Shown one piece after another: positions 3,060 to 37,367 of a stretch of 64,000 nt of DNA. Position 1 is the first letter of the stretch; each line of letters starts with the position of its first letter. The stretch comes from Blastocatellia bacterium. GTDB taxonomy: Bacteria > Acidobacteriota > Blastocatellia > UBA7656 > JADIYM01. The notes under the pieces are model-generated. The model worked only from the letters and a program-made list of their open reading frames with translations. It was not told where the DNA came from and did no database searches. The DNA lies in the NCBI GenBank assembly GCA_021463145.1, contig JAJTWZ010000012.1:1-64000 (forward strand), written 5' to 3'. Position numbers and translations under genes: made by a program.

Positions 3060-5171
3060 TCAGCGGACAACCGCCGGCGCGGCGAGCAGCACAACGGTCG
3101 ATCGGGCTCGCACGAAGTACGACCGCTGGTAAGAAAGCACGGGCGCCGAATCGGGCTCGCAGAAGTCCTCCGGCGACTCGAGCGACGTGTCGACGATGCG
3201 ACGCCAGGGCAGGTCCTCCATGACCGGCAGTTCGAACGTCGCGCTGTCCCAATGCGCGTTCGCCATCACGTACAGATGAGCGTCCGTGAGTCCCACCGGC
3301 CCGAAGATGTGCATCGCGAGCCGTCGCGCCTCGGGCGACCAGTCCGGATGGCCGAGCGAAGTACCGTGCCAGTCGACGGAAAGTCCACCGCCCCGGCGGT
3401 CCGACGCGAACCGCCGCCGCCGCAGGAGCGGCAATTCGCGGCGGAAGTGGATCAGTCCGCGAACGAAGCGATGAAGACCGCTGTTCTTCTCGAGAAGAGT
3501 CCAGTCGATCCAACTCGTCAGGTTGTCGTGGCAGTAGGCGTTGTTGTTTCCGCCCTGGGTCCGCCCCATCTCGTCTCCGGCCAATAGCATTGGAACGCCC
3601 TGCGACAGCAGCAGCAGGGTCATCACGTTGCGCACCTGCTGACGGCGCAGCTTCAATACGGCAGGATTGCCGGTCGGTCCTTCAGCCCCGCAGTTCCAGC
3701 TCAGGTTGTCGTTCAAACCGTCGGCGTTGGCCTCGCCGTTCGCGACGTTCACCTTGCGGTCGTACGAGACCAGATCCTCCAGTGTGAAGCCGTCGTGACA
3801 CGTTACGAAGTTGATGCTGTGGTACGGCTCACGATTGCTCGTCTGATAGAGGTCCGGGCTGCCCAGAAGTCGAGTGGCAAGCGAATAGGTCCGCCCTGGC
3901 TCTCCCCTCACGAAGCGCCGGACGTCATCGCGGAAGCGTCCGTTCCACTCGGCCCACCGTCCCCACGCGGGAAATGTGCCGACCTGGTAAAGGCCGGCCG
4001 CATCCCACGCTTCGGCAATCAGCTTCGTATGCGCGAGGACCGGATCGTGGGCGAGCGACTCAAGCAGCGGCGGGTTCGCCAGCACCGCCCCGTCGGTTCC
4101 GCGGCCGAGAATCGATGCGAGGTCGAACCGGAATCCGTCGACGTGCATCTCCGTGACCCAATAGTGAAGAGAATCGACGATCAGCGTCCGGACGATGGGA
4201 TGATTGCAGTTGAGCGTGTTTCCACAGCCGGAGTAATTCCTGTACTCGCCGGTCGCGCGATCGACGATGTAGTACACGGCGTTGTCGATGCCGCGGAACG
4301 AGTGCGTCGGCCCCCGCTCGTCGCCTTCGGCCGTGTGGTTGTAGACGACGTCGAGAATCACCTCGATGCCGGCGCCGTGGAAAGCCCGAACCATCTGCTT
4401 GAACTCGTGAACCGCTCCTCCGTTTGCCGGGTCCGCCGCGTATGCGGCATTCGGCGCGAAGAACGCGATGGGCTGATAGCCCCAATAGTTGAGCAGACGC
4501 TCGCCCGTGAGCGGGTTCACTCGATTCGTGTCCGCCTCTTCGAACTCCCAGATCGGCATCAACTCGACGGCGCTGACGCCGAGATCCTTCAGATAGGGGA
4601 TCTTCTCGACGAGCCCCGAGAACGTGCCGGGACGAACCGCGCACGAGGATGCGTCACGCGTGAAACCGCGCACGTGGAGCTCGTAGATGACCGAGTCCGA
4701 TAGCGGAATGTTCAGTGGCTGGTCGTCGCCCCAGTCGAATCCGTTGTCAACCAGGAGGCAGCGGCGTTGCGAGGTGTGCGGGGCGTCTCCCCACGCCGCA
4801 CCTCCGCAGATAGCGCGGGCATACGGATCGAGAAGTATCGCCGACCGTTCGAAGCGGTGCACCTCGGGTTGCGAGTTGGCGGCCCGGTCCATCCGGTACG
4901 CGTATTCAACCGACGGATGAACGTCGCCAACGAGCACGTGCCAGACGTCGCCCGTCCGGTTTATCCTCGGATCGAGCGGGATCTCGAGGGCCGGATGCGG
5001 GTCGCCCGGGGCGTAGAGTAGCAAGGACACCGACGTCGCGGCGGTCGATACTACCGAGAAATTGATACCGCCAGGCCGGCGCGTTGCGCCCAGGGGCAGC
5101 GGCGCGCCGCGTTCCAGCCCGAACGAGGGTCCCAGGATCTTCTCGAGCGCGCGCTCTTCGACCCGGCTCAT
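3060..5171 (-). CDS. glgX: Glycogen debranching enzyme GlgX (GH13, CBM48)
   Basis: A 703-residue isoamylase-type debranching enzyme that hydrolyses alpha-1,6 branches of glycogen in the cytoplasm. An N-terminal CBM48-like beta-sandwich (about 20-120) precedes a GH13 barrel with the four conserved regions: DVVYNH, GFRFDLAS (nucleophile Asp), LIAEAWD (acid/base Glu) and FVTCHDGF (transition-state Asp). The length is normal for GlgX/TreX. ATG 5171 (MSRVEER) is preferred over ATG 5186 because GGAG lies six bases before it. It is divergent from phosphofructokinase, so stored-glucan breakdown and glycolytic entry are neighbours, although not one transcript. Confidence 0.95.
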   Translation of the reverse strand: MSRVEERALEKILGPSFGLERGAPLPLGATRRPGGINFSVVSTAATSVSLLLYAPGDPHPALEIPLDPRINRTGDVWHVLVGDVHPSVEYAYRMDRAANSQPEVHRFERSAILLDPYARAICGGAAWGDAPHTSQRRCLLVDNGFDWGDDQPLNIPLSDSVIYELHVRGFTRDASSCAVRPGTFSGLVEKIPYLKDLGVSAVELMPIWEFEEADTNRVNPLTGERLLNYWGYQPIAFFAPNAAYAADPANGGAVHEFKQMVRAFHGAGIEVILDVVYNHTAEGDERGPTHSFRGIDNAVYYIVDRATGEYRNYSGCGNTLNCNHPIVRTLIVDSLHYWVTEMHVDGFRFDLASILGRGTDGAVLANPPLLESLAHDPVLAHTKLIAEAWDAAGLYQVGTFPAWGRWAEWNGRFRDDVRRFVRGEPGRTYSLATRLLGSPDLYQTSNREPYHSINFVTCHDGFTLEDLVSYDRKVNVANGEANADGLNDNLSWNCGAEGPTGNPAVLKLRRQQVRNVMTLLLLSQGVPMLLAGDEMGRTQGGNNNAYCHDNLTSWIDWTLLEKNSGLHRFVRGLIHFRRELPLLRRRRFASDRRGGGLSVDWHGTSLGHPDWSPEARRLAMHIFGPVGLTDAHLYVMANAHWDSATFELPVMEDLPWRRIVDTSLESPEDFCEPDSAPVLSYQRSYFVRARSTVVLLAAPAVVR

Positions 5172-12437: not shown

Positions 12438-13109
12438 ATGCGAGCTGTCCAAGCGGAACAAGCATCAATAGACCCGCCGCCCCTGTGCGCCCTCGACGGC
12501 ATCGAGCTCGAGCGGCGCAACGACTTGATAATGAGCTTTCGGCCGTACGTGATACGAGTCGCCCGCTCGGTAGTCGTGACGGTGCCGACCTATGTCGAAC
12601 TCGACGACCTCATCGGCTGGGGCTATCTGGGCCTCATCGAGGCCGCGGACCGATTCGACGAGTCGCGCGGAGTCCCGTTCCGCTCGTTCGCGCATTACCG
12701 GATCAAGGGCGCGATCTACGACGGACTGAGACGCGAGTTCGGCGCGCACGTTCCATCCCAACTCTCGAGCGACGAGGCGGACAGCGTCACGCCGGAGCTC
12801 ATCTGCGGCGATGCGGCCTACGGAGGCGGCAGCCGTCTGGAGCTCTACGGCCTCTCGAGAGACCTCTCCCCGGACCACCACGTCTGGATCGCGGAACTCA
12901 TTGCGCTTGTGGACGAAGTGATGGATACGCTCTCGCCGATGGAGCGCGACGTGCTCCGTCATCGCTACTTCCTCGACAAACCGATCGTTTCGCTTGCTGG
13001 CGCGCGAAACTTCTCGAAGTCGTGGCTGTCTCGCATCCACGCACGCGCGATAGCGAAGCTGCGCGCAAAAGTCGTGCTTCGCATGCGCAAGAGAGGAGCG
13101 GCATCGTGA
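12438..13109 (+). CDS. Sigma-70 family factor, sigma-28 (FliA/WhiG)-like, first gene of T3SS operon
   Basis: A 223-residue alternative sigma factor. Region 2 is clear (DLIGWGYLGLIEAADRFD at about 57-75, then FRSFAHYRIKGAIYDGLR), which is the sigma-28 signature. Region 3 is poorly conserved. Region 4 includes LSPMERDVLRHRYF, followed by a helix-turn-helix SLAGARNFSKSWLSRIHARA. ATG 12438 has GGAG at seven bases. The stop overlaps the GTG of the rod gene (GTGA), so it is translated with the secretion apparatus. It probably directs transcription of secretion genes; target promoters were not identified. Confidence 0.85.
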   Translation: MRAVQAEQASIDPPPLCALDGIELERRNDLIMSFRPYVIRVARSVVVTVPTYVELDDLIGWGYLGLIEAADRFDESRGVPFRSFAHYRIKGAIYDGLRREFGAHVPSQLSSDEADSVTPELICGDAAYGGGSRLELYGLSRDLSPDHHVWIAELIALVDEVMDTLSPMERDVLRHRYFLDKPIVSLAGARNFSKSWLSRIHARAIAKLRAKVVLRMRKRGAAS

Positions 13110-13393
13110 GCCCGCGCATTGCCGGAACGCCGCTGCCAGCGTCGCCCTCTCGCGAATCGGCGCCGATGCGAGGCTCGAGCCCTTCGTTCGCCCAGGTGTT
13201 TCGAGACGCGATGCGGGCCGCGGATCGGAGCAGGCCCGAGACGCCGCGTGCCTCGGCCATACCGACGGATGCGTCGCGCGCCCTGGCACTTCAAGCCGAG
13301 ATCTATCGGGATGCCGAACGAGTCGAACTGGTCTCGAAGCTCGTGGACCACGCGGTGAGCGCGGTGAAGACGCTCCTTCAAACGAGGTTCTGA
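13106..13393 (+). CDS. sctI: T3SS inner rod-like protein SctI
   Basis: A 95-residue protein from GTG 13106, which overlaps the sigma factor stop and follows GAGAGGAG. The N-terminal half is Pro/Ser/Ala-rich and likely disordered. The C-terminal 40 residues form an amphipathic helix ending VSKLVDHAVSAVKTLLQTRF, the pattern seen at the C-terminus of YscI/HrpB rod proteins. Position immediately before sctJ matches the yscI-yscJ order. Assignment rests on size, helix pattern and location, since this family is highly divergent; a flagellar FliE-like role is the main alternative. Confidence 0.6.
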   Translation: MSPRIAGTPLPASPSRESAPMRGSSPSFAQVFRDAMRAADRSRPETPRASAIPTDASRALALQAEIYRDAERVELVSKLVDHAVSAVKTLLQTRF

Positions 13394-13395
13394 AC

Positions 13396-14139
13396 ATGCG
13401 CCCTTGCCACGTATCGTTGCGCCCCGCCGCACTCCTTGTCGTCGCGGTCCTTGCCACCGGATGCGCGCGGCGCGCGGTACTCGAAGACCTTCCGCGACGT
13501 GAGGCCGGCCGCTGCACGGTTGCCCTTCGCGCCGCCGGGCTCGATGCGGCGGTCGAGGGCGCCGGGGACGAGTCCACGGTCACCGTCGGCGGCGACGATG
13601 CGGACTTCAGAACGGCGCTCCAGATTCTCGCCGACCACGGACTTCCCCGGCGTGCTGCGCCCGGTTTCGATTCCGAGGGTGGCTCGCTGATTCCAAGTCC
13701 GTCAGAAGAGCGCGCCCGATACATCAAGGGCCTCTCCGGCGAGATCGAGACATTGCTCGAAAGCGTCGACGGCGTAGTGTCAGCCGAAGCGCTCGTCAGC
13801 CTGCCGGAGCGCCGCCCACTCTCTACCCAGGCCGAACCTGCATCGGCGTCCGTTGTGCTGTCGTTCGCAGGACCCGAGACACCTGTTGCCGAGTCGGAGG
13901 TTCGGAACATCGTGGTGAGCAGCATCGGCGCCGACATTTCCGGCGACCGGGTGTCGGTCGTCGCCAAGCCAGTGGTGCGGGCAACCGCCTTGCCGCCTGT
14001 CGTTCGGTACGAGCGTGACCGAATTGTCGAGTTCGGATTCCTCGCCGCGGTGCTGCTGCTCGCGATCCTCGAGGCCGTCACGATCTGGCGGCTTCGCGCG
14101 ACACGCCGCGCGCGAATCGGAGGTGAGTCACGTGACTGA
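13396..14139 (+). CDS. sctJ: T3SS inner-membrane ring lipoprotein SctJ
   Basis: A 247-residue SctJ (YscJ/PrgK/FliF N-terminal) homologue. It has a lipoprotein signal peptide with lipobox LATGC (Cys23), two ring-building domains (about 35-90 and 110-200; the second includes a SVDGVVSAEALVSLPE segment typical of FliF/YscJ), and one C-terminal transmembrane helix (about 216-236). Lipidation and the single C-terminal helix distinguish SctJ from flagellar FliF, so this is the non-flagellar ring. It starts three bases after the rod gene and ends inside the next gene. Confidence 0.9.
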   Translation: MRPCHVSLRPAALLVVAVLATGCARRAVLEDLPRREAGRCTVALRAAGLDAAVEGAGDESTVTVGGDDADFRTALQILADHGLPRRAAPGFDSEGGSLIPSPSEERARYIKGLSGEIETLLESVDGVVSAEALVSLPERRPLSTQAEPASASVVLSFAGPETPVAESEVRNIVVSSIGADISGDRVSVVAKPVVRATALPPVVRYERDRIVEFGFLAAVLLLAILEAVTIWRLRATRRARIGGESRD

Positions 14140-14815
14140 GGAGGCAACGAACGTGTGCCGGCTCCTGGACCTCGCGTGCTCGACGGCGGATGACTCGATT
14201 CGCGTCAGGGCAATCGAACGGATCGTCGCACGCTGCGAACCACGATCGCGGCGTCCGCCGGGGGGCGTGCGAGGCACAAGCCTGGCGGTCGAACGATTGC
14301 TCGACCGCTTCGCGCGATTCGGCGTTCCGGCGCAGCCCCGTATCCTTCGTCCTGCATCGGTGCGTCTGGCGCGGGCGCTGCTCGCACTCGACGATGCGCG
14401 CCTCGACAGACTGGAACTCGACCTCGGATTGGTCGAGGCCGCCGTGCTGGTAAGATCGCTGGACCGGCCGGCTGCCGCGGACGTTGCGCGAGCGCTGTCG
14501 ACGCTCCGCGATCGGCTTGACGCGGCTACGGCGCTCGCGCCGTGTCTCGGCGAACCGGGGGTCAGGGAATCGGCGCGGCGCTTCGCAGCGCTTGCCCCCA
14601 GGGGATTCACGGGTGGCGCCCTGGTGCGAGCTCTTGGACGTTCGCTTGCCGGACATCTGGTATCGGACGCAGAGCCCGACGCGGTCGCAACGCTTCGACG
14701 GCGGCTTCCGCGCATCGGCGACAGCGACGCACAGGTCGACGAAGCCTGGTTTCCGGTTGCAACCCAACTCGCCCTCGGCAACTCGGCTTCTGCAACTGGA
14801 GGTATCGCGAGGTGA
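14132..14815 (+). CDS. sctK: SctK-like accessory protein
   Basis: A 227-residue, mainly helical, Arg/Ala/Leu-rich protein starting at GTG 14132 with GGAGG upstream and overlapping the end of sctJ by 8 bp. There is no recognisable motif. Its place between sctJ and sctL is that of SctK (YscK/OrgA), the protein that links the sorting platform to the inner-membrane ring. The call is therefore mainly positional. The stop overlaps the sctL GTG. Confidence 0.5.
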   Translation: MTEEATNVCRLLDLACSTADDSIRVRAIERIVARCEPRSRRPPGGVRGTSLAVERLLDRFARFGVPAQPRILRPASVRLARALLALDDARLDRLELDLGLVEAAVLVRSLDRPAAADVARALSTLRDRLDAATALAPCLGEPGVRESARRFAALAPRGFTGGALVRALGRSLAGHLVSDAEPDAVATLRRRLPRIGDSDAQVDEAWFPVATQLALGNSASATGGIAR

Positions 14816-15447
14816 GACTCACAGTCGTCAAGGGACCGGTCGCGCCGATGCGTCGTCTCGAGCCGGAAGCCGGTGTCAGACTTCGAACCGCCGTGCAGGA
14901 CGCGGCCCGGCGCGAGGCGAACGCCATTGTAGACGAAGCGAGGGAGGACGCGCGGCGGCTCGTCGCCGCTGCGAGAGCCGAGGCCGCAGGAGTCGAGGAC
15001 GAAGCCCGGCGGCTCGGAACCCGCGACGGTGCGGACCGCTGGACTCAGGCCGCTCTCGCTCTGGCATCCGCGCACGCCGAGGCGCTCGCGACGCTCGAAC
15101 GCGAAGCCCTGGCCCTGGCGCTCGAGGTTGCGCGCAGGATAGTCCGATCCCACGTCGCCTCATCGAGCGAGGCATGGGCCGAACTCGTGGCGACGTCGAC
15201 CAGCCGCCTCCGGCGCGACGGCACCCTTGTCATTCGCTTCGCGCCGTCCGACGAGTCACGCCTCGAGGCCGTTCGTGAGCGTCTCGCCAGCTTCCGCGAA
15301 GTGACCTTCGAGCGAGACGACACGCTCGAAGCTGGCGACTGCATTGCCGAATGCTCCGGCGTTCGAGTCGACGCGCGCATCGACGTTCAAATCGCGGCGA
15401 TCGAGCGGCTGCTTTGTTCCGGCCAGGACAAAGGGGCAACGCAATGA
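14812..15447 (+). CDS. sctL: T3SS ATPase stator SctL (FliH/YscL family)
   Basis: A 211-residue SctL/FliH-like protein that would bind and regulate the SctN ATPase. After a short N-terminus, residues 28-90 are an Ala/Glu/Arg-rich coiled coil (REANAIVDEAREDARRLVAA), the region that dimerises in FliH. The C-terminal globular part (about 100-205) contains ALALEVARRIV, the FliH/AtpE-like helix, and ends in IAECSGVRVDARIDVQI, a typical end of this family. The start at GTG 14812 overlaps sctK by four bases, and the stop overlaps sctN by four bases. Confidence 0.82.
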   Translation: MRLTVVKGPVAPMRRLEPEAGVRLRTAVQDAARREANAIVDEAREDARRLVAAARAEAAGVEDEARRLGTRDGADRWTQAALALASAHAEALATLEREALALALEVARRIVRSHVASSSEAWAELVATSTSRLRRDGTLVIRFAPSDESRLEAVRERLASFREVTFERDDTLEAGDCIAECSGVRVDARIDVQIAAIERLLCSGQDKGATQ

Positions 15448-16823
15448 GCGGCTTCTCGGCGCGTCCGTACATCGATCGCCTCGCGGGTTCCGACCCGCTC
15501 GAGACACACGGCAGCGTGCGAAGCGCCGTCGGATTGATCGTGCGCTGCGCGCTACCCGAGACGTGGATCGGAGAGCTCTGCGAGATCAGGGCCGATCGGG
15601 ATTCGAAGCCGATGCTCGCCGAGGTCGTCGGGTTTCGCGGCGACGAGGCGCTTCTGATGCCACTCGGCTCGATGTATCGCGTCGGCACCTCGAGCATAGT
15701 AAACCGGCTCGACCGCGCACTAACGGTCCAGGCAGGCGACGGCCTGATCGGCAGGGTCCTCGACGGACTTGGACGGCCCGCCGACGGGCGGCCCATCGCC
15801 GGCGTCGTGAGCGAACGGCCCGTGCACGCCGCACCTCCACCGCCCCTTACGCGCACTCCGCTCTCGGAGCCCTTCGCGACCGGCGTGCGCGCGATCGACG
15901 GAATGTTGACGATGGCCGAGGGTCAGCGCGTCGGAATCTTTGCAGGCGCCGGCGTTGGCAAGAGCACCCTGCTTGGGATGATCGCCCGCAACGCCAGCGC
16001 AGATGTGGTCGTCGTCGGACTGGTTGGGGAAAGAGGACGCGAAGTAAGGGAGTTCCTCGAGGTTGACCTCGGGCCGCGTGGAATGGCTCGAACGGTGGCT
16101 GTCGTCGCGACGAGCGACCAGCCTGCCCTCGTGCGGATGCACGCAGCGTACGTGGCGACGGCAATCGCGGAGCACTACCGGGCCGACGGCCTTCGAGTGC
16201 TGCTCCTCATGGACTCCGTTACGCGATTCGCGCGCGCGCTGCGGGAGATTGGACTCGCCGCCGGCGAACCGCCGGCCCGCGCCGGCTTTCCGCCTTCCGT
16301 ATTTGCCGAGCTGCCCCGATTGCTCGAGCGGACGGGAACCGACTCGCGCGGTTCGATCACCGCCATCTATACCGTGCTCGTCGAGGGCGACGATCACAAC
16401 GAACCGGTGGCGGACGAATGCCGCTCAATCCTCGACGGGCACCTGGTGCTCTCGTCCGAGAGAGCCGGGCGGGGCTACTTTCCGGCAATCGACATTGCCC
16501 GCAGCGCCAGCCGCGTGATGTCGCGCGTTGCCTCGGCCGATCACCTCGCTGCGTCCAGGCACGTCAGGGCGTTGCTCGGCGCCTACGAACGCGAGCGCGA
16601 CCTCATCCTGCTCGGCGCGTACGAACCCGGCACCGATCTGCTGGTCGACGAGGCAATCGCGAAGGTGGACGATCTCGACGCGTTTCTCGCGCAGCAACCC
16701 GACGAGTTCACGCCGCTGCCGGCAAGCGTCGCGGCCGTCGAAGCTTTCGCTCTGCCATTCGAACCTCCGGACGAGGCGTTCGGTGACGACTCCATCGACG
16801 ACGAGGACCTTGATCTCGAATGA
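15444..16823 (+). CDS. sctN: T3SS ATPase SctN (FliI/YscN family)
   Basis: A 459-residue hexameric ATPase that detaches chaperones and unfolds substrates at the export gate. Walker A is GAGVGKST (about residue 172), the family motif GERGREV follows near 199, and Walker B is LLLMDSVTR near 255. The C-terminal domain includes GRGYFPAIDI and ends in an unusually acidic tail (DDSIDDEDLDLE) that is not typical. The start ATG 15444 overlaps sctL. Homology to both FliI and YscN is strong, so it is the lipoprotein SctJ and the gene order that make it non-flagellar. Confidence 0.95.
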   Translation: MSGFSARPYIDRLAGSDPLETHGSVRSAVGLIVRCALPETWIGELCEIRADRDSKPMLAEVVGFRGDEALLMPLGSMYRVGTSSIVNRLDRALTVQAGDGLIGRVLDGLGRPADGRPIAGVVSERPVHAAPPPPLTRTPLSEPFATGVRAIDGMLTMAEGQRVGIFAGAGVGKSTLLGMIARNASADVVVVGLVGERGREVREFLEVDLGPRGMARTVAVVATSDQPALVRMHAAYVATAIAEHYRADGLRVLLLMDSVTRFARALREIGLAAGEPPARAGFPPSVFAELPRLLERTGTDSRGSITAIYTVLVEGDDHNEPVADECRSILDGHLVLSSERAGRGYFPAIDIARSASRVMSRVASADHLAASRHVRALLGAYERERDLILLGAYEPGTDLLVDEAIAKVDDLDAFLAQQPDEFTPLPASVAAVEAFALPFEPPDEAFGDDSIDDEDLDLE

Positions 16824-17323
16824 ACCGGAACTGCTATCGATTCGAACCGCTTGCCCTGCTCAGCGAACGCGGCCGGAAGCTGGCGCAGGGCCGTGTCGCC
16901 CTGGCCGCGCGGCGTGTCCGCGCGTGCGAGCGACGCGTCAGACAGATGGACGACCTCGCCGCTCGAGAGCAGGGGCGGGCAGCCGCCGCCGTGCGCGAGT
17001 CGCGCGCCGATGCCTTGGCAGTTCGCGCGGCGATCGACGCGACTGTCGATGCGATGATCTCGGCGGCAAGGGATCATCGCGCGGATGCGGCGGGGGCGCG
17101 GGTCGCGCTCGACCGGTCGATCGCCGAATGCGAGCGCCGCCGCAGCGAGGCTCGCGTCGCGGTCTCGGACGCCGAACTTCATCGCTCGGCCCGCGAGCGC
17201 GCAATGGCTCTCTCGCGGGCCAGGGCCCGCCGGAAGTGCGAGAGCCGATCGGCTGAGGACGCGTGTGCGGCCTGGGCTGCCGCGCGCAGAGACCTCGACC
17301 AGGAGGACGATCGTGCGAGTTGA
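16820..17323 (+). CDS. sctO: T3SS ATPase stalk protein SctO-like
   Basis: A 167-residue, almost entirely alpha-helical, Arg/Ala/Glu-rich protein predicted to form a two-helix antiparallel coiled coil. Size, coiled-coil character and position directly after the ATPase gene match SctO/FliJ, the central stalk that inserts into the SctN hexamer. The ATG overlaps the sctN stop (ATGA). Confidence 0.7.
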   Translation: MNRNCYRFEPLALLSERGRKLAQGRVALAARRVRACERRVRQMDDLAAREQGRAAAAVRESRADALAVRAAIDATVDAMISAARDHRADAAGARVALDRSIAECERRRSEARVAVSDAELHRSARERAMALSRARARRKCESRSAEDACAAWAAARRDLDQEDDRAS

Positions 17324-17825
17324 AACAGTGCCTGCTCAAACGAAGGCGGAAGAGCAATCGCCCGGCCGCGCGCGCTCGAACAGATCGAAGTTCCGGCAGA
17401 CGCTCGAGGATCTGCGTTCTCTTCAGTCGTGCGCGGAGATTGCTCAGGCTCCGTCCGCGCCGCTCTCGGGTGGCGCCGGACCTGTTCCCGTCGAGTTCGC
17501 CGATTCCTCGAAGGGCGCGGCGCAGGCGCGCGGCATCGATCGGGTGAAGGCGGCCGAAGCGTCTTCGGCTGTTCCGCCACTAGTTACCGGCGTTCGCACG
17601 ACATTCGTCACAGAGGACCGGCACTTGGTAGACGTCCAGGTTCGGGCGGCCGGCGAGCAGGTCATCGTGGCGATGGCCGCCGCGCCGCATCACGCCGAGC
17701 GGCTCGCCACGCACGCCGGAACGCTTGGCCGTAAACTCTCGGAACGCGGCGTCCGGGCCCGGTCGCTCAGGGTGACATCGGGCGAACATCGGCAGGGCGA
17801 CAGCAAGTCGAGGCCGTCGCGATGA
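17313..17825 (+). CDS. sctP: SctP/FliK-like length-control protein
   Basis: A 170-residue protein from GTG 17313 (AGGAGG upstream), overlapping sctO by 11 bp. The N-terminal 90 residues are low-complexity Ser/Ala/Gln-rich. The C-terminal part (LVDVQVRAAGEQVIVAMAAA followed by a helix, then SERGVRARSLRV) resembles the substrate-specificity domain of FliK/HpaP: a beta hairpin, a helix and a final strand. It is short for a ruler protein. Position between sctO and sctQ supports SctP. Confidence 0.6.
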   Translation: MRVETVPAQTKAEEQSPGRARSNRSKFRQTLEDLRSLQSCAEIAQAPSAPLSGGAGPVPVEFADSSKGAAQARGIDRVKAAEASSAVPPLVTGVRTTFVTEDRHLVDVQVRAAGEQVIVAMAAAPHHAERLATHAGTLGRKLSERGVRARSLRVTSGEHRQGDSKSRPSR

Positions 17826-19234
17826 GCGCCTCGAACACGTTGCTCGAAATCGAATCGCTGGACCAGCGACACGTGACCGTGGGCGGCGCGATCGTGCGGA
17901 CTCCGATGCCAACTGGGCTTGCCGCGAGAGTCGCGCGAGCCGCTCACGACGCAATCGCCCAACTCGCCCCGTCGAACACGCGTCCGTCGCTCGATCTCGA
18001 CTGGGACGGTGGCTCGTACAGGCTCACGGCGGACGAGACGGACTCGGGACGAGCGCTGGCGGACGCCCTGGGCGCCGATGTCATCGTTCACCGGGGCCGC
18101 GAGGGCGGACGTCTTGTCGTCGGAAGTGACGTGGTCGCCTTCTGCCAGGGGTGGCCCTTGGATCCGGGCGTCCCCTTTCGCATCGGTCACGGCGACGTCT
18201 TGCGGATCGACGGCCGTCACGTTGCCGTGCGAAACGACCCTCCGCAACTCCCGCTCGTTCGGACGGGTGGCATCGCCCTCGCTCCGATGCCGAAGGACGT
18301 GGCCTTCACAGCGCGATTCGCCATTGAACCTTCAGGCGAGCCGCTCGAGCTTCGGTGCGACCCGTTGCTCACGCGGGCTCTCGTGTGTCTGGTTCTGCGC
18401 CACGATGCGGAGCGGCCGTTCGATCCGACGGCGCTAACGAACGTCGAGCAGGCAACTCTTGACTGGCTGACAACCCGGATCGCCGAGCGGATCGGCACCG
18501 ATGTGTTCGCCAACAGGGTTGCGTTCCGACTCGCTGCCAGCGATGTTCAAACGGAAACCTGGGTCTCGGCAGTGATCGGCGTGGGGCCGGTGGCCGGCAC
18601 CGCCTGGATCGGCACCAGCGCCGCCGGAAGCGCCGCCATCGCAAGCGCACTGGCACACACGTCGGCACGTCAGGTGGCTTCGAGCCCGGCTCTTCGCGGT
18701 GTCTTCGTGACGATGGCGGCACGAATCGCGCTCGGCCGTCTGGATGCCGCAACCGTCGCCGCGGTGGAGCCGGGCGACGTGTTCGCGTCATCGGACGTGC
18801 CGTGGATCGGTGACGCAGGCTGGTCGAGCCACGGATCGCTCGTGCTGACGAGCGCCGACTCGATGGCAACGCACGTGTCATTGGAACGCGACGACCGTGG
18901 TCAACTCCGGGCTACTTTGCTCGGGCGCACCATTGAAGGAGGAAACGACGATATGCGGATCGCGGAACCACGTGAAGCTCTTGAAGACGACGCTCGGCCA
19001 TTCGCCGACGCGCTCGATGCCATCGGGGTCGACGTCGCCATCGAGGTTGCCAGGCGCCGGATCAGGCTCTCCGAAGCGCTTGCCCTTTCGACCGGCGACG
19101 TATTCGAGCTCGGATCGCCTGTCACCGCCAGGGTGTCGCTCATGATTGACGGCGCGCCATTCGCCACGGGCGAACTGGTGAACGTGGACGGCGCACTAGG
19201 CGTTCGCGTCGTCGGAACCGGAGGACGGCGATGA
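17822..19234 (+). CDS. sctQ: T3SS cytoplasmic ring/sorting platform protein SctQ
   Basis: A 470-residue SctQ. The N-terminal two thirds are divergent. The C-terminal 80 residues are a SpoA (FliN-like) domain, with RIRLSEALALSTGDVFELG, VSLMIDGAPFATGELVNVDG and LGVRVV in the expected order. A strong internal ribosome site precedes an in-frame ATG at 18953, so a separate 93-residue C-terminal SctQ is likely, as described for YscQ, SpaO and related proteins. The start overlaps sctP and the stop overlaps the FliO-SctR gene. Confidence 0.85.
   Translation: MSASNTLLEIESLDQRHVTVGGAIVRTPMPTGLAARVARAAHDAIAQLAPSNTRPSLDLDWDGGSYRLTADETDSGRALADALGADVIVHRGREGGRLVVGSDVVAFCQGWPLDPGVPFRIGHGDVLRIDGRHVAVRNDPPQLPLVRTGGIALAPMPKDVAFTARFAIEPSGEPLELRCDPLLTRALVCLVLRHDAERPFDPTALTNVEQATLDWLTTRIAERIGTDVFANRVAFRLAASDVQTETWVSAVIGVGPVAGTAWIGTSAAGSAAIASALAHTSARQVASSPALRGVFVTMAARIALGRLDAATVAAVEPGDVFASSDVPWIGDAGWSSHGSLVLTSADSMATHVSLERDDRGQLRATLLGRTIEGGNDDMRIAEPREALEDDARPFADALDAIGVDVAIEVARRRIRLSEALALSTGDVFELGSPVTARVSLMIDGAPFATGELVNVDGALGVRVVGTGGRR
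18936..18955 (+). promoter_or_regulatory. Internal ribosome site and start for short SctQ-C
   Basis: GAAGGAGG is followed after 10 bases by ATG 18953, in frame with sctQ codon 378. The product would run to 19234: 93 residues made up of the SpoA domain. The Shine-Dalgarno is the strongest within the gene and falls in the linker between the two parts of the protein, the expected place for the known SctQ-C internal start. Confidence 0.7.
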
Positions 19235-20451
19235 TCGCGAAACTCGCTCTGCCGCCAATCGGAATTGCAGCCATAGGCCTCGTCGCCGTGCTTTCACTAG
19301 TATCGGGGGGAGGCTCTGCCATTGCGCTCTCGACATTGGCGGTACTGTCTGCCGGAGCGATCGCCGTCTCACGAAACCGGCGACGTGCCCAGGCCTCCGG
19401 CGTTCGTGCTTCGATCGAGCGACTGGGCGGGTGCGGGCTCGGACCGGGCGTGGCGGTGCACGCGGTTCGAGTCGCCGACCGGGTGCTCATCGTCGGAGTC
19501 AGCGGCTCGTCGGTGACCCTTCTCGACCGAACCACCGTGGACGAGCTTGCTCCGGCCGAAATCGCAGAGATCGAAGAGGACGCGCGTGCGGCTCCGAACA
19601 CGACCCGAGCCATGCTGCGGTGGATTGGGCGCGGAGGACTCGCGATCCTGCTTCTGTCCGGTGCTGTGCTGGCCGCACCCGAGGCTTACGCGCAGTCGGA
19701 ATCGCCTCGACAGTCCGCCGACCTCGCACCGGCCGGGCGTTCTGACAGGCAGTCGAAGGATCCGCCGGCGCTGCCGGCCATCGACGTGCCTCCGGCCTCG
19801 CCGGTCGAAATGCCCGTTCCAGGTTCGACGCCGCTGGGGCCGATGCTCTGGTTAGCGGGACTCGCCGTGCTTCCCTTCGCGCTGATGGGTGTCACGTCGT
19901 TCGTGAAAATCTCGATCGTGCTGTCGCTATTGAGAAGCGCGCTTGGTACGCCGCAGGTTCCTTCTGACCCGCTGCTTGCGGGAATCGCTCTGTCACTGAC
20001 CACATTCGTGATGGCTCCCGTCGCAAGCGAGGCCTGGTCGCGCGTCGCGGCCGCCAATGCCGACCTGTCGACAACTGGCGGAGTCGTGACGGCTCTGACG
20101 GCGGCTGCGCCTCCAATCCGGCAGTTCCTCGAGCGCAATGCGCGGCCTGACGAAGTCGGCATGTTCGTCAGTCTGTCGACACGTGACGGTCACGAAGCGG
20201 CCGATCCCGGCTCGTTCGGGATTCTCGTGCCGGCATTCGTCACCAGCGAACTTCGTGAAGCATTCGTCGCCGGATTCTTTCTCTTCATACCGTTTCTGGT
20301 CGTGGACCTCGTGGTTTCCAACATCCTCATGTCGATGGGAATGGTCATGGTCTCGCCTACGACGGTCTCGTTGCCCTTCAAGGTCCTGTTGTTCGTGCTC
20401 GTCGACGGGTGGCCGCTGCTCGCGAAGGCGCTCGCGCTCAGCTACCACTGA
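19231..20451 (+). CDS. sctR: FliO-like domain fused to export gate protein SctR
   Basis: A 406-residue fusion. Residues 1-50 contain two hydrophobic helices. Residues 60-112 are a FliO-like cytosolic beta domain (DRVLIVGVSGSSVTLLDR). Residues 128-154 (from Met128) form a second signal-peptide-like segment ending AAPEAYAQ. Residues 200-406 are SctR/FliP, with VTSFVKISIVLSLLRSALGT, the segment VPAFVTSELREAFVAGFFLF and MSMGMVMVSPTTVSLPFK. FliO is a flagellar assembly factor for FliP and is normally a separate gene or absent from injectisomes. The retained FliP signal peptide suggests that signal peptidase could split the fusion. The ATG overlaps the sctQ stop. Confidence 0.88.
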   Translation: MIAKLALPPIGIAAIGLVAVLSLVSGGGSAIALSTLAVLSAGAIAVSRNRRRAQASGVRASIERLGGCGLGPGVAVHAVRVADRVLIVGVSGSSVTLLDRTTVDELAPAEIAEIEEDARAAPNTTRAMLRWIGRGGLAILLLSGAVLAAPEAYAQSESPRQSADLAPAGRSDRQSKDPPALPAIDVPPASPVEMPVPGSTPLGPMLWLAGLAVLPFALMGVTSFVKISIVLSLLRSALGTPQVPSDPLLAGIALSLTTFVMAPVASEAWSRVAAANADLSTTGGVVTALTAAAPPIRQFLERNARPDEVGMFVSLSTRDGHEAADPGSFGILVPAFVTSELREAFVAGFFLFIPFLVVDLVVSNILMSMGMVMVSPTTVSLPFKVLLFVLVDGWPLLAKALALSYH

Positions 20452-20463
20452 AGGAGGAACCCG

Positions 20464-20727
20464 ATGGACTCGATCGTCGTCACCACCTGCCAGCAGGCAT
20501 TGCTGGCCGTTCTGATCCTGTCGGCGCCGGCGGCACTTACCGCCGTCCTGGTCGGACTCGTAGTCAGCGTCCTGCAGACCGCAACGCAGATCCAGGAGCA
20601 GACGCTCTCTTACGTGCCGAAACTGGTGGCCGTCAGCGCCGCGCTCGCAGTCGCGGGACCGTGGATGCTTGCGGAGCTCGTTCGATTGGCCACATCGATG
20701 TTCGAACGGGTCGCGGAGGCGATGTGA
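20464..20727 (+). CDS. sctS: Export gate protein SctS (FliQ family)
   Basis: An 87-residue protein with two hydrophobic helices (about 12-37 and 51-75) and the conserved loop QTATQIQEQTLSYVPK between them, the hallmark of FliQ/SctS. It lies 12 bp after sctR with AAGGAGG just before the ATG. It forms the export gate with SctR and SctT. Confidence 0.95.
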   Translation: MDSIVVTTCQQALLAVLILSAPAALTAVLVGLVVSVLQTATQIQEQTLSYVPKLVAVSAALAVAGPWMLAELVRLATSMFERVAEAM

Positions 20728-21479
20728 ACCTCGCACTCGAGTCGTGGCTGCTCGTTTTCACCCGCATTGCGCCGATCGTCGCGCTTCATCCGGTCTTCGG
20801 CGGCCGCGCGACGCCTTCAATCGTGAAGGCGTCGGTCGCGTGCGTACTGGCAACGGTCTTCTGGTCCGATCGGGCCGTTGCGAGCCCCCAGGGCCCTCTG
20901 CTCGTGAACGCAGTGACGCAGGCAGCGATCGGACTCGCGGTCGCAGCAGTTGGCATCGCCGTTTTCGGCGCGATAGAGGCGGCCGGGCGATTCGTCGACG
21001 ACGCCCGAGGTGCGAACGCGGCCCGTCTTTTCGCGCCACACCTGGAAGCGTCGACGAGTCCGCTCGGCGCACTCGACGCTGCCGCTTCGCTTGCACTGTT
21101 CTGGTCTGCTGGCCTTCATTCCGTGCTCATCGAGTCGATCAGCTCGAGCTTCGATACTCTGCCGGTTGGTGCAAGGCCGGCCGGCCCAATCGCGGACCGC
21201 GCCGCCTTTCTGACCTTCACGGTCGACGCCATCGGCGCGCTCTGCAGAGCGGGACTCGCGATGGCAGGACCGGCGGCCGCGGCAACGGTCACCGTCGACG
21301 CATTCTTCGGCCTGGTCAACCGCTCGAGCCCACAGGCGCCTGTCTTCTCGCTGAGCCTTCCGGTGAAGCTCGTGGCCGCTCTGGCAGTAACGGCATTGGC
21401 GGTTCCGGGACGCGCCGGGCAGTGGGCCGAGGCGTTCAGGCTTCACGACGGATGGATCCGATCGATACTTGGAGGATGA
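20724..21479 (+). CDS. sctT: Export gate protein SctT (FliR family)
   Basis: A 251-residue integral membrane protein starting at GTG 20724 and overlapping sctS by four bases. It has about six hydrophobic segments and FliR/SctT features: the early RIAPIVALHPVFGG, the region IEAAGRFVDDARG, and the late FFGLVNRSSPQAPVFSLSLP. It is completed by SctR and SctS to form the export gate. Confidence 0.93.
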   Translation: MNLALESWLLVFTRIAPIVALHPVFGGRATPSIVKASVACVLATVFWSDRAVASPQGPLLVNAVTQAAIGLAVAAVGIAVFGAIEAAGRFVDDARGANAARLFAPHLEASTSPLGALDAAASLALFWSAGLHSVLIESISSSFDTLPVGARPAGPIADRAAFLTFTVDAIGALCRAGLAMAGPAAAATVTVDAFFGLVNRSSPQAPVFSLSLPVKLVAALAVTALAVPGRAGQWAEAFRLHDGWIRSILGG

Positions 21480-21480
21480 A

Positions 21481-22293
21481 ATGCTCTTTGCAATAGCGGT
21501 CGATCCGAGGGGCTCGTCCTCGGCCTTGATGCTGTGGCGCGATGGCGAGATGGGCGAACTGGTTCGAGCCGGCGAACACGCCACCTGCGACATGCGCCTT
21601 CCAGGCGCAGGTATCGCGTCCTGCGACGTCTGGCGAGGCGAGAGCAACTGGCAGGTCCGCCGCCCCGACGGTTCGGTGCGCGACGTAGAGGACGGCGACA
21701 ACTTCGTGGTCGGCCGTTGGTGGCTGCTACTGCTTGTCGACGAAGCGCCGATGGCATCGGGCCCCCCTACTGGATCGCATCGACGGTTCGGCGTGCCTGA
21801 TTGCCCCGCTGCCCAGGGATTCGAATCCGAAGACCGGCGGCTGGCGGACATCGACGACGACCTCCCACGACTCCTTGGCGGCGGCGACGGGTGCGCCATC
21901 AGAATCGCCCTGACGCGAGAGCGATTCTGCGCCGTCGTTCGGCGGGCAGGGCGTGCGACGAGAATCTATCCGGTGCCTGGCACGCGCCTCGCCGTCGACG
22001 GCAAGCAGATCGCCGGCCCGATGCAGCTGGGCGACGGCAATGTCCTCGCCGTACCCGACTCGCCGCCAATTCGTTTTGTCGACGCGGATCAGGAGCTCGA
22101 CAGATTGCTCGACTCGCTCAGAGACGAGCACCCGGACAGGCCTGAGCCTGACTCCGCCACGCCGCCCGGAAACGCGGCGCCAGAGACAACGGCCCGGCGC
22201 GATCCGTTCCTGACGCCGGTCGAGGCGGCGCTGGCGTGCGGCACGCTAGCCGCGATCGTCGCTCAATCCGTCGTGACGATCGCGCGATGGTGA
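21481..22293 (+). CDS. SctD-like protein with two FHA-like domains and a C-terminal membrane anchor
   Basis: A 270-residue protein from ATG 21481 (GGAGG five bases upstream), directly after sctT. Two FHA-like beta-sandwiches can be seen: residues 1-88, and about 140-205 with LLGGGDGCAIRI, RERFCAVVRR, a GT segment and LGDGNVLAV. An acidic/Pro-rich linker leads to one transmembrane helix at about 246-268, and the protein ends there. SctD proteins have a cytoplasmic FHA domain, one membrane helix and then a periplasmic ring domain. Here the periplasmic part is missing. It is the best SctD candidate of the operon, but a different FHA membrane protein is possible. Confidence 0.6.
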   Translation: MLFAIAVDPRGSSSALMLWRDGEMGELVRAGEHATCDMRLPGAGIASCDVWRGESNWQVRRPDGSVRDVEDGDNFVVGRWWLLLLVDEAPMASGPPTGSHRRFGVPDCPAAQGFESEDRRLADIDDDLPRLLGGGDGCAIRIALTRERFCAVVRRAGRATRIYPVPGTRLAVDGKQIAGPMQLGDGNVLAVPDSPPIRFVDADQELDRLLDSLRDEHPDRPEPDSATPPGNAAPETTARRDPFLTPVEAALACGTLAAIVAQSVVTIARW

Positions 22294-34820: not shown

Positions 34821-35171
34821 ATGCCACGAACACAGTCCACTACCCAGATCGCACCGCTGATTCGACCGGACGAATACGCGACCCGGCCCCGATCGCGGGC
34901 CAGGTCGGTTTTCGCCAATATCCTTCGAACCGCCGGAGCCGTCGCGTCCGTGGCCGTGCCGGGAATCGGACCGGCAATTGGCGCAATCGCGAATGCAGCA
35001 AACCGGAATGCCGCGCAGGCCTTGGCGTTCGACGGCGAAAGCAATGCCGTGCGCTATCTCGAGTTGCAGCGCGCAATCTCTGAGGAGACGCGCGTCATCG
35101 AGTCGACGTCGAACGTGATGAAGGCCCGCCACGACGCGATGATGAACTCGATACGGAATATGAAGTCGTAG
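34821..35171 (+). CDS. Small T3SS-linked protein upstream of sctU
   Basis: A 116-residue protein with GGAGG nine bases before ATG 34821. Residues 26-58 form a Gly/Ala-rich hydrophobic stretch (AVPGIGPAIGAIANAA). The C-terminal 40 residues are an amphipathic helix ending SNVMKARHDAMMNSIRNMKS. It lies four bases before sctU, so it very likely belongs to the secretion system. Size and C-terminal helix would suit an early substrate (needle, rod or translocation-related), but I do not recognise the family with certainty. Confidence 0.6.
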   Translation: MPRTQSTTQIAPLIRPDEYATRPRSRARSVFANILRTAGAVASVAVPGIGPAIGAIANAANRNAAQALAFDGESNAVRYLELQRAISEETRVIESTSNVMKARHDAMMNSIRNMKS

Positions 35172-35175
35172 CAGC

Positions 35176-36327
35176 GTGGCGAGCTCTTCAACATCGGAGC
35201 GCACCGAGCAGCCGACTCCGAAGCGCCTTCGCGAAGCCCGGCGAAAGGGACAGGTCGCAGTCAGCCGCGACCTGGCGTCGGCAGCTGGATTCGCGTGCGC
35301 CCTCGGCGTTCTCGCTGCTTCGCTTCCATTCGCGGCACGGCGTCTTGCGAGCACCGCAAGCCTGGCAATCGAACGAGCCGTCAGCACCGAATCGCTGGAC
35401 GCCGCGGCCGCCCTGGCGACCGTGGACGATGCGTTGTGGACGATGCTCTCGGTATCTCTTCCAATCGTGGCGGCAGCACTCGTGGGAGGGGCGGTTCTGA
35501 CGTTACTGCAGACGAAGGCGTTGATTACTGCCGAGTCGTTCGCTCCCAAGCTCGAGAGGTTCGATCCAGTAGCCGGCATCAAGCGATTGTTCGCCCATCG
35601 CACTCTCATCGAGCTTGGCAAGACGTGGCTGAAGCTGTCCGCCGTCGGCGTCGCAGTCGTCTGGGCGGCGGGCGGAGAAGGACTGCGCACGCTTGTGCAG
35701 TCGGCAGCCTCGGGCCCAGGCGATGCGATTTTCGCCGGTGTGCGCGTATGCCTGCTCGCCGCTGGTGCAGTCGCCGTATCTTCCGTGGTCCTTGGCGGTA
35801 TCGACGTGCTGTTGCAGCGCTGGCTGCACAACAGGGACCTGCGCATGACGAAAGACGACGTGCGGCGGGATCACAAGGAGGAAGAGGGCGACCCGCACGT
35901 CAAGAACACGCGCATGCAGATCCATCGCGAACTGGCGCTATCGACGATGCTGCGCAACACACGTACGGCGAACTTCGTCGCCGTAAACCCGACACACCTT
36001 GCGGTTGCGGTCGCGTGGGACGAGTCGTGCGACGGCGCACCGAGAATCGTGGCGAAGGGCGCCGGAGAAGCGGCCAGGCGCATACGTCGCGAGGGCGAAT
36101 GGAACGGCGTGCGCATCGTCCGTGACAAACCGCTGGCGCGGGCGCTCTACGCTGTCCCGACTGAGGCGGAGATCCCGGAAGCGCTCTACGTCGCTGTCGC
36201 CGAGACACTCGCTTTCATTGCAAACGAGACTGCGGATGCGCTGGCGGACCGAGTCGAACCTACGACGGCTCGGTCCTTAGCTTCGCGATCTTTGCCCGGA
36301 ACTCCTGAATCTGGTGATCAGGCATGA
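35176..36327 (+). CDS. sctU: T3SS export switch protein SctU (FlhB/YscU family)
   Basis: A 383-residue SctU. The N-terminus ERTEQPTPKRLREARRKGQV is the family hallmark, four membrane helices follow to about residue 210, and the cytoplasmic domain contains the self-cleavage site NPTH (about 270), so substrate switching should work. Translation starts at GTG 35176. It is separated from the main operon by about 13 kb of minus-strand genes. Its last 68 bp overlap the 3' end of the convergent TPR gene. Confidence 0.95.
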   Translation: MASSSTSERTEQPTPKRLREARRKGQVAVSRDLASAAGFACALGVLAASLPFAARRLASTASLAIERAVSTESLDAAAALATVDDALWTMLSVSLPIVAAALVGGAVLTLLQTKALITAESFAPKLERFDPVAGIKRLFAHRTLIELGKTWLKLSAVGVAVVWAAGGEGLRTLVQSAASGPGDAIFAGVRVCLLAAGAVAVSSVVLGGIDVLLQRWLHNRDLRMTKDDVRRDHKEEEGDPHVKNTRMQIHRELALSTMLRNTRTANFVAVNPTHLAVAVAWDESCDGAPRIVAKGAGEAARRIRREGEWNGVRIVRDKPLARALYAVPTEAEIPEALYVAVAETLAFIANETADALADRVEPTTARSLASRSLPGTPESGDQA

Positions 36328-37336
36328 ACGGCGCCAGGAGGATGAATCGCTCGTATGCGTCGGCTGCCTGGGTGCGTAGCCCGCGAGATTCCAGAATCTG
36401 AGCAAGCGACAGGAAGTACTTCGACTGCTGGTCGTTCGGGCATTCCTTGCAGACGTCGATGGCTTTCTGAAGCGCCTCTGTGGCACCGGGCAGATCCGGC
36501 TTGCCGTTCAGGGCCGTCGCAAGCGCGTACCAGGCACTGGCGCTTCCCTGATTGTCGGGGCCGATCTCGCCGATCGCCTGCCGGGCCGATGACTCGGCCT
36601 CCGCCAGCTTGCCGGACTCGAAATAGGAGCGGGAGAGGTTGATGCGGGCCTCGGGAAACGGGCCCTGACGTGCTGCAATCGCCTTCTCGAAGTACGGGAT
36701 CGCGTCGCCGTAGCGCTTGAGCGCCTTATAGGTTAGCGCGATGTTGTAGATCGCTTCGGGATCGTCGGGACTTAGCTTGAGAACCTCGGTGTACTGGCGC
36801 AACGCTTCGTCGTAGTCACGGAGCGCGTAGCTCGCGCGGCCGATCCGGTTCCGGGCGTCTACGTTCTTGCGGTCGACCACGAGCGCGCGCTTGTAGGAAT
36901 CCGCGGCATTCTGCACGTCAGAAATATCGAAATAGGCGTCGCCAAGATCGATAAGCGCGTCGACGAACCGGCTTTCGAGACGAATTGCCGCTTCGTATTG
37001 GGTGATCGCGCCTTCGAAGTCACCCTTCTCGTAAAGACGACGGCCGGCCTCGTAGCGCTTGGTGGCCTCGGGTGAGATGGCCATCGTCGCGGGATCCTCG
37101 TTGACTTCCGAAGGATCGGGAGACTTCGGCTTTCCAGGTGTGTGCTTGACGGGCTTGGGTTTGGCGACGATTCGCGTGCGTGCGCGCAAGTACGGCCGAT
37201 CCAGTCCACCGCCCCGTTCGATATCGCGAATCTGTGCCGAAACGACTCCAGACAGCGCAAAGGCTGCGATAACGACCACGGCACCGCACGGCCCGATTAT
37301 GCGCACCTTTCGATGCGACCTCCTGACGCTGTCCAT
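36260..37336 (-). CDS. TPR repeat protein with N-terminal membrane anchor or signal
   Basis: A 358-residue protein. Residues 10-35 form one hydrophobic segment (VVVIAAFALSGVVSAQ) that may be a signal peptide. Residues 85-350 contain about seven TPR units (for example AGRRLYEKGDFEGAITQYEAAI, and ALRQYTEVLKLSPDDPEAI). It starts 31 bp after the kinase-FGE gene with GAGGAG upstream, so both are probably one operon and may act together at the envelope. Confidence 0.85.
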   Translation of the reverse strand: MDSVRRSHRKVRIIGPCGAVVVIAAFALSGVVSAQIRDIERGGGLDRPYLRARTRIVAKPKPVKHTPGKPKSPDPSEVNEDPATMAISPEATKRYEAGRRLYEKGDFEGAITQYEAAIRLESRFVDALIDLGDAYFDISDVQNAADSYKRALVVDRKNVDARNRIGRASYALRDYDEALRQYTEVLKLSPDDPEAIYNIALTYKALKRYGDAIPYFEKAIAARQGPFPEARINLSRSYFESGKLAEAESSARQAIGEIGPDNQGSASAWYALATALNGKPDLPGATEALQKAIDVCKECPNDQQSKYFLSLAQILESRGLRTQAADAYERFILLAPFMPDHQIQEFRAKIAKLRTEPS

Positions 37337-37367
37337 GCTTACTCCTCGGTCGACTGTTCGACCGAGC

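Follow-up and report, generated by a model that had tools for sequence, protein, structure and literature searches.

A non-flagellar type III secretion locus without a secretin in a Blastocatellia bacterium, and a family that may branch between flagella and injectisomes

What kind of machine is encoded by a type III secretion system (T3SS) locus that combines injectisome-like genes with flagellar parts and has no secretin beside it? This question is raised by a gene cluster in a 64,000-nucleotide stretch of a Blastocatellia bacterium genome (contig JAJTWZ010000012.1, positions 1 to 64,000; hereafter the window), for which an initial annotation had proposed an intermediate, or a new variant, of the non-flagellar T3SS (NF-T3SS). 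Secretin-less NF-T3SS are known from myxobacteria, where they are read as surviving intermediates on the path from flagellum to injectisome. Our analysis suggests, with a probability of roughly 0.7, that the window encodes part of a working NF-T3SS whose family extends across one phylum, probably Acidobacteriota, and branches between flagella and secretin-bearing injectisomes.

Gene identities in the window were established with Pfam, NCBIfam and hidden Markov models (HMMs) built with the window left out, which together confirmed sctI, J, L, N, Q, R, S and T between 13106 and 21479 and sctU at 35176. The K, O and D open reading frames (ORFs) were unmatched by the leave-window-out HMMs and were all assigned by gene order. 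The run sctI-J-K-L-N-O-P-Q-R-S-T plus a short SctD-like gene (13106-22293), with sctU elsewhere, thus stands as initially annotated, with K, O, P and D placed by position; the locus start given at 12438 does not, as the first ORF there encodes a FliA/WhiG-type sigma factor. The features are as follows.

12438..13109, + strand: FliA/WhiG-type sigma factor, opening the cluster (Pfam Sigma70_r2 6e-14, r4 2e-6; FliA_WhiG 4e-24)
13106..13393, + strand: sctI, inner rod subunit, GTG start (leave-window-out HMM 7e-8; NCBIfam SctI 0.01)
13396..14139, + strand: sctJ, inner-ring lipoprotein with a lipobox and one C-terminal helix (Pfam YscJ_FliF 3e-15; HMM 2.8e-45)
14132..14815, + strand: SctK-position protein, a positional call without a family match (missed by the relatives' HMM; hhalign insignificant)
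14848..15447, + strand: sctL/FliH stator, likely ATG at 14848 (Pfam FliH 4e-12; leave-window-out HMM 6e-28)
15441..16823, + strand: sctN, export ATPase, Walker A intact (TIGR02546 SctN 570 bits, exceeding FliI models)
16820..17323, + strand: sctO/FliJ-like stalk, a positional call from the N-O-P order of the relatives, without a significant match
17319..17825, + strand: sctP/FliK-like length regulator, start uncertain (Pfam Flg_hook 0.0015; relatives' HMM 0.067, weak)
17822..19234, + strand: sctQ, C-ring/sorting platform, 470 aa (FliMN_C 3e-14; leave-window-out HMM 5e-28; TIGR02551 SctQ 4e-19 vs FliM 2e-5)
19231..20451, + strand: sctR with an N-terminal FliO domain, a FliO-FliP fusion (Pfam FliP 1e-63, FliO 2.8e-7)
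20464..20727, + strand: sctS (Bac_export_3 2e-26)
20724..21479, + strand: sctT, GTG start (FliR 3e-33; SctT 3e-30)
21481..22293, + strand: SctD-like protein, 270 residues, no periplasmic domain, single helix 243-268 by hydropathy (homology suggestive, P 0.045)
34821..35171, + strand: Fx, small conserved protein, candidate needle or filament subunit, directly 5' of sctU (leave-window-out HMM 2.5e-16)
35176..36327, + strand: sctU, substrate-specificity switch, NPTH intact (Bac_export_2 5e-97; TIGR01404 SctU 295 vs FlhB 275 bits)
36260-37483, convergent with sctU and overlapping its end: TPR protein, apparently with a signal peptide, weakly similar to the relatives' exported TPR proteins; dropped as a T3SS partner, the match being a generic TPR one

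All T3SS ORFs in the window are open. NF-T3SS models in NCBIfam outscored flagellar ones for J, N, Q, U and V, and flagellar models slightly outscored non-flagellar ones for SctS and SctT. The 247-aa SctJ scored 119 bits with the SctJ model TIGR02544 against 20.7 with FliF, and its lipobox cysteine is invariant across six homologues, which together with the hydropathy profile upholds its description as a lipoprotein with one C-terminal helix.

The remainder of the host assembly (5.28 Mb, 173 contigs, 100% complete) was also searched. Its sole FHIPEP gene is sctV (C115:4602-6557; NCBIfam HrcV 670 vs FlhA 578 bits), alone on its contig, so that the export apparatus is complete. YscJ/FliF occurs once genome-wide, as the window's SctJ, and a genome-wide search for the flagellar rod family Flg_bb_rod returned no match. 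As initially noted, neither a secretin nor SctV was found on the window's contig. Only two secretins were detected in the genome: PilQ, above its cut-off and in a pilMNOPQ operon beginning with pilM, and a GspD-like protein beside gspF and a gspE/pilB gene; the SctC model scored both far under its cut-off, and no dedicated T3SS secretin was found. With one YscJ/FliF copy, no rod gene and secretins located elsewhere, the system is accordingly classed as secretin-less and non-flagellar. It is an NF-T3SS, having SctRSTUV, SctN and a short lipoprotein SctJ and no rod gene, and it is not a canonical injectisome, since both the secretin SctC and the periplasmic SctD domain are missing. The genome-wide search revealed neither a flagellar cluster using these genes nor a canonical secretin/SctV operon elsewhere. 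A SycD/LcrH-like chaperone on contig C108 shares 38% identity with a chaperone encoded in the T3SS cluster of a relative, G012, and an SctD profile matched only partial stretches elsewhere in the host genome (best E 0.004), leaving the window ORF unmatched.

Related loci are not confined to this genome. Among the 162 genomes of the class, an alignment of SctJ identified the short, non-FliF form in 23, the host and 22 others, and a 396-genome sample of the phylum contained 11 carriers of related loci outside the class. The genomes analysed are mostly draft or metagenome assemblies whose incompleteness could hide genes, yet the pattern recurs across genomes. G029 and G033 share the order sigma-I-J-K-L-N-O-P-Q-FliO-R-S-T-U with a SycD-like gene, and G012, G088, G075 and G053 carry SctD-V-J-K-L-N with chaperones, Fx and more. 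A homologue of the sigma factor lies within most related loci, including those of G029, G033, G012, G088, G053, G147, G185 and G220. Because FliO is a separate gene adjoining sctR in the relatives, the window's SctR, whose FliO domain the initial annotation had already recognized, is read as a fusion. Secretins in the 11 relatives' genomes searched (1-4 each, counted as matches without a gene-by-gene identity check) never lay near the T3SS cluster, being either distant from it or on a different contig. A wider contig search with SctR returned only 17 more distant FliP/SctR loci, 12 of them in Chloroflexi metagenome-assembled genomes and none of this family; several were reused as flagellar references.

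Where the family branches was addressed with a tree of concatenated SctN, R, S, T, U and V (26 systems, 2012 columns) that left out myxobacteria, Chlamydiae and the Ysc and SPI types. The relatives, seven secretin-bearing NF systems and eight flagella each formed a clade with 100/100 support, the relatives were placed between flagella and secretin-bearing T3SS, and nesting within either was rejected by approximately unbiased (AU) tests (3e-70 to 7.5e-8). The site-heterogeneous model LG+C20 with posterior mean site frequencies agreed. The initial proposal of an intermediate or new variant is thus favored by tree and AU tests, by the single YscJ/FliF gene and by the lack of a rod gene and of a T3SS secretin.

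The proteins also have distinctive features. In all eight FHA-containing SctD proteins of relatives and in the window ORF (9/9), the only helix is at the C-terminal tip, in contrast to canonical SctD, in which it sits mid-protein and is followed by a periplasmic part (3/3). It is suggestive that ORF 21481-22293 belongs to the relatives' SctD family, whose members are predicted to be without the periplasmic half that would hold a secretin. In the SctK slot, 11 of 15 proteins from relatives matched Pfam FliG_M at E <=1 (best 1.1e-6, above cut-off), an HMM of four flagellar FliG sequences hit three of them below 1e-4 (best 2.9e-7), and hhalign aligned the slot protein with FliG at 95.6% (P 1.3e-8), compared to near zero (0.1-0.2%) for the controls SctL, SctP, SctO and TPR. 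Canonical SctK showed no detectable hhalign link to either the SctK-slot protein or FliG, and a descent of SctK from FliG is therefore only suggested. SctQ of G029 combines an FHA domain with FliM and FliN domains, and the window's SctQ is longer than the canonical SctQ compared. Traits that appear to mark the family are thus FliO, an FHA-bearing SctQ, a protein homologous to FliG in the SctK position and an SctD ending at its transmembrane helix. Single-sequence AlphaFold models of the window's SctD-like and SctK-like proteins had predicted local distance difference test (pLDDT) scores of 42.6 and 40.7, too low to interpret.

The small protein Fx, which precedes sctU in the window, recurs in 13 loci; its length is 50-155 aa, and a C-terminal helix motif is conserved. 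Weak matches to SseC (0.0045) and needle_F (0.036), and to the HrpA pilin for one relative (3.6e-4), hint at a substrate that forms a filament or is of translocator type. When Fx profiles were searched against the PDB, no needle was recovered, and we therefore do not claim that Fx is SctF.

The cargo candidates come from the relatives. In G012, G088, G075, G078 and G098, the T3SS genes have as neighbour a gene whose product ends in a CdiA-CT RNase A domain (PF18431), and in all five a CdiI_2-type immunity gene (PF18593) adjoins it. Pfam called two of these immunity genes, and an HMM trained on that pair called the other three. Of the 162 class genomes, 8 contain PF18431, and 7 of the 8 are T3SS carriers (hypergeometric 3.5e-6, uncorrected for relatedness). 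Proteins with DUF1521, the NopE domain, were found in 6 of 11 genomes.

PF18431 RNase with CdiI_2 immunity gene: L036 10396-12353; L069 2644-4954; L070 around 4201-4836; L072 655-1290; L184 1344-3367
DUF1521, NopE-like protein with GDPH motif, inside T3SS clusters: L036 13752-14783; L069 951-2012; L070 553-1635; L075 2791-3801; L184 4744-5793

Because an immunity gene accompanies the RNase, the targets would be bacteria, suggesting that these pairs are antibacterial cargo in the relatives.

Other genes recur beside these clusters. Lytic transglycosylase/peptidoglycan-binding proteins (L069 17424-19316, L070 17435-19321, L154 6036-7166) have a possible role in wall passage or as cargo. A conserved pair near sctO, comprising a membrane-anchored FGE-sulfatase-like and an exported TPR protein (L036 16364-18804, L071 7465-9892, L155 12728-15181), represents candidate envelope components, and helical proteins of ~200 aa beside the SycD-like gene of G029 and G033 (L080 17311-17910, L082 3900-4505) are possible translocator-type substrates.

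Read from gene content, the function of such a system may be pictured as follows. The sequence shows SctRSTUV with FliO as the inner-membrane export engine, SctN and L as the ATPase complex and SctQ as the C-ring, together with a single SctJ lipoprotein ring, the rod protein SctI and an SctD that stops at the inner membrane; the SctK slot of relatives holds a FliG-like protein. SctD and SctJ may anchor the cytoplasmic platform only. SycD/LcrH-type chaperones would deliver substrates to SctV and SctN, SctU would switch export from SctI and Fx to late cargo, and Fx may polymerize into a short filament or tip, with the outer membrane crossed through a borrowed or unrecognised conduit. As the likely cargo in relatives is an antibacterial RNase with its immunity protein, the likely job would be contact-dependent antagonism or predation, as for the T3SS* of Myxococcus xanthus.

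Several observations count against this picture of a working, basal family that includes the window. In the window itself, K, O, P and D have diverged too far for homology testing, and the FliG-likeness is that of the relatives' proteins. The window itself sits on a long branch, for which attachment to the relatives, to the NF references or to flagella was equally acceptable (AU 0.33-0.56). Fx has no significant relation to any known needle in profile searches, a genome-wide search of the host recovered neither a toxin-immunity pair nor a DUF1521 protein, and no outer-membrane conduit accounts for substrate passage.

This last point bears on the alternative that survives best, to which we give slightly less than even odds: that export crosses the inner membrane only, or that cargo is handed to the secretin of a type IV pilus or type II secretion system, as cooperation between Kil and T3SS* has been proposed for M. 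xanthus. The lack of a periplasmic SctD domain, the existence of PilQ and GspD-like secretins and the peptidoglycan-acting enzymes of some clusters are consistent with such a handover, but no physical or genetic link to a pilus was found. As it concerns only the outer-membrane step, it is compatible with a working NF-T3SS branching between flagella and injectisomes.

A second alternative, that the family belongs to the Myxococcales secretin-less NF-T3SS by inheritance or transfer, is possible, though we think it rather doubtful. The gene content equals that described for T3SS*, namely homologues of SctD, J, I, Q, RSTUV, N, L and LcrH with no secretin (PMC10433427); the Myxococcales systems were placed at the same position, the base of NF-T3SS (PMC3459982); and FliO has been reported for Myxococcota NF-T3SS (PMC12248157). 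The excerpts of these texts are silent on a FliG-like SctK, an FHA-bearing SctQ, an SctD lacking the periplasmic half and an RNase-CdiI cargo, a silence that is no test.

The two remaining alternatives are very improbable. A decaying canonical injectisome that has shed secretin, needle and some of SctD would fit the scattered genes (sctU 13 kb off, sctV on another contig), the long branch and the short SctK and SctD, but not the open ORFs, the intact Walker A and NPTH motifs, the recurrence of the secretin-less layout and SctD form in many genomes or the rejected nesting inside the sampled secretin-bearing systems. Similarly remote is a reduced flagellum, or a flagellar export gate repurposed for instance for nanotubes, which FliO, the relatives' FliG-like SctK, the FliA/WhiG sigma factor and the scores of SctS and SctT would favor, but which conflicts with the short lipoprotein SctJ, the model preferences of J, N, Q, U and V, the presence of SctI, the lack of a detected rod gene, the rejected nesting inside flagella and the occurrence in G088 and G053 of the T3SS cluster alongside a separate FliF-FliG-FliH-FliI cluster.

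A second secretin-less group in another phylum, with a membrane-ending SctD and a FliG homologue occupying the SctK slot, would provide an independent handle on the order in which parts were gained. Because the relatives span the phylum and some carry a toxin-antidote pair in the cluster, the family may reveal how flagella gave rise to syringes. The five co-located RNase-immunity pairs point to bacterial targets, which is directly testable, and hint that early syringe-type systems were perhaps aimed at other bacteria. Tentatively, and with the balance somewhat against it, one may go further and envisage a phylum-wide T3SS lineage, distinct from the myxobacterial one, that kept a FliG-like C-ring adaptor, has no secretin or periplasmic SctD and delivers antibacterial toxins with immunity; if true, the path from flagellum to injectisome would have led through interbacterial weapons, not host-cell injection.

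Among known systems, the flagellum shares FliO and the FliA/WhiG sigma factor with the family, along with FliG-like and FliM-like domains in relatives, and differs in that the system has no detected rod gene, a short SctJ instead of FliF, and a position from which nesting within flagella is rejected. Secretin-bearing injectisomes (rhizobial, Hrp1/Hrp2-like; references L114-L121) share SctI-J-K-L-N-O-P-Q-R-S-T-U-V, the lipoprotein SctJ and TPR chaperones and, with some relatives only, DUF1521/NopE-like proteins; in contrast to them, the family lies outside their clade (100/100), has no SctC or periplasmic SctD ring domain, keeps FliO and FliG-like parts, and its Fx is not provably a needle. Our literature search, incomplete in coverage, found no T3SS description for this phylum beyond a note on FliO. 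The closest known system appears to be the Myxococcales secretin-less NF-T3SS, exemplified by T3SS*, with which the family shares a complete export gate, ATPase, SctJ, SctI, SctQ, SctD, FliO, LcrH-like chaperones, the lack of a secretin and a basal position. Compared by description only, the family differs in its phylum, probably Acidobacteriota, in its FliG-like SctK, FHA-bearing SctQ and membrane-ending SctD, and in its FliA-type sigma gene, Fx and the pair of CdiA-CT RNase and CdiI carried by five relatives. Membership in the myxobacterial group is not claimed, but the system would work like T3SS*: the needleless M. xanthus machine acts on bacterial prey and has a role in predation (PMC12075869), which the antibacterial cargo with immunity in relatives matches.

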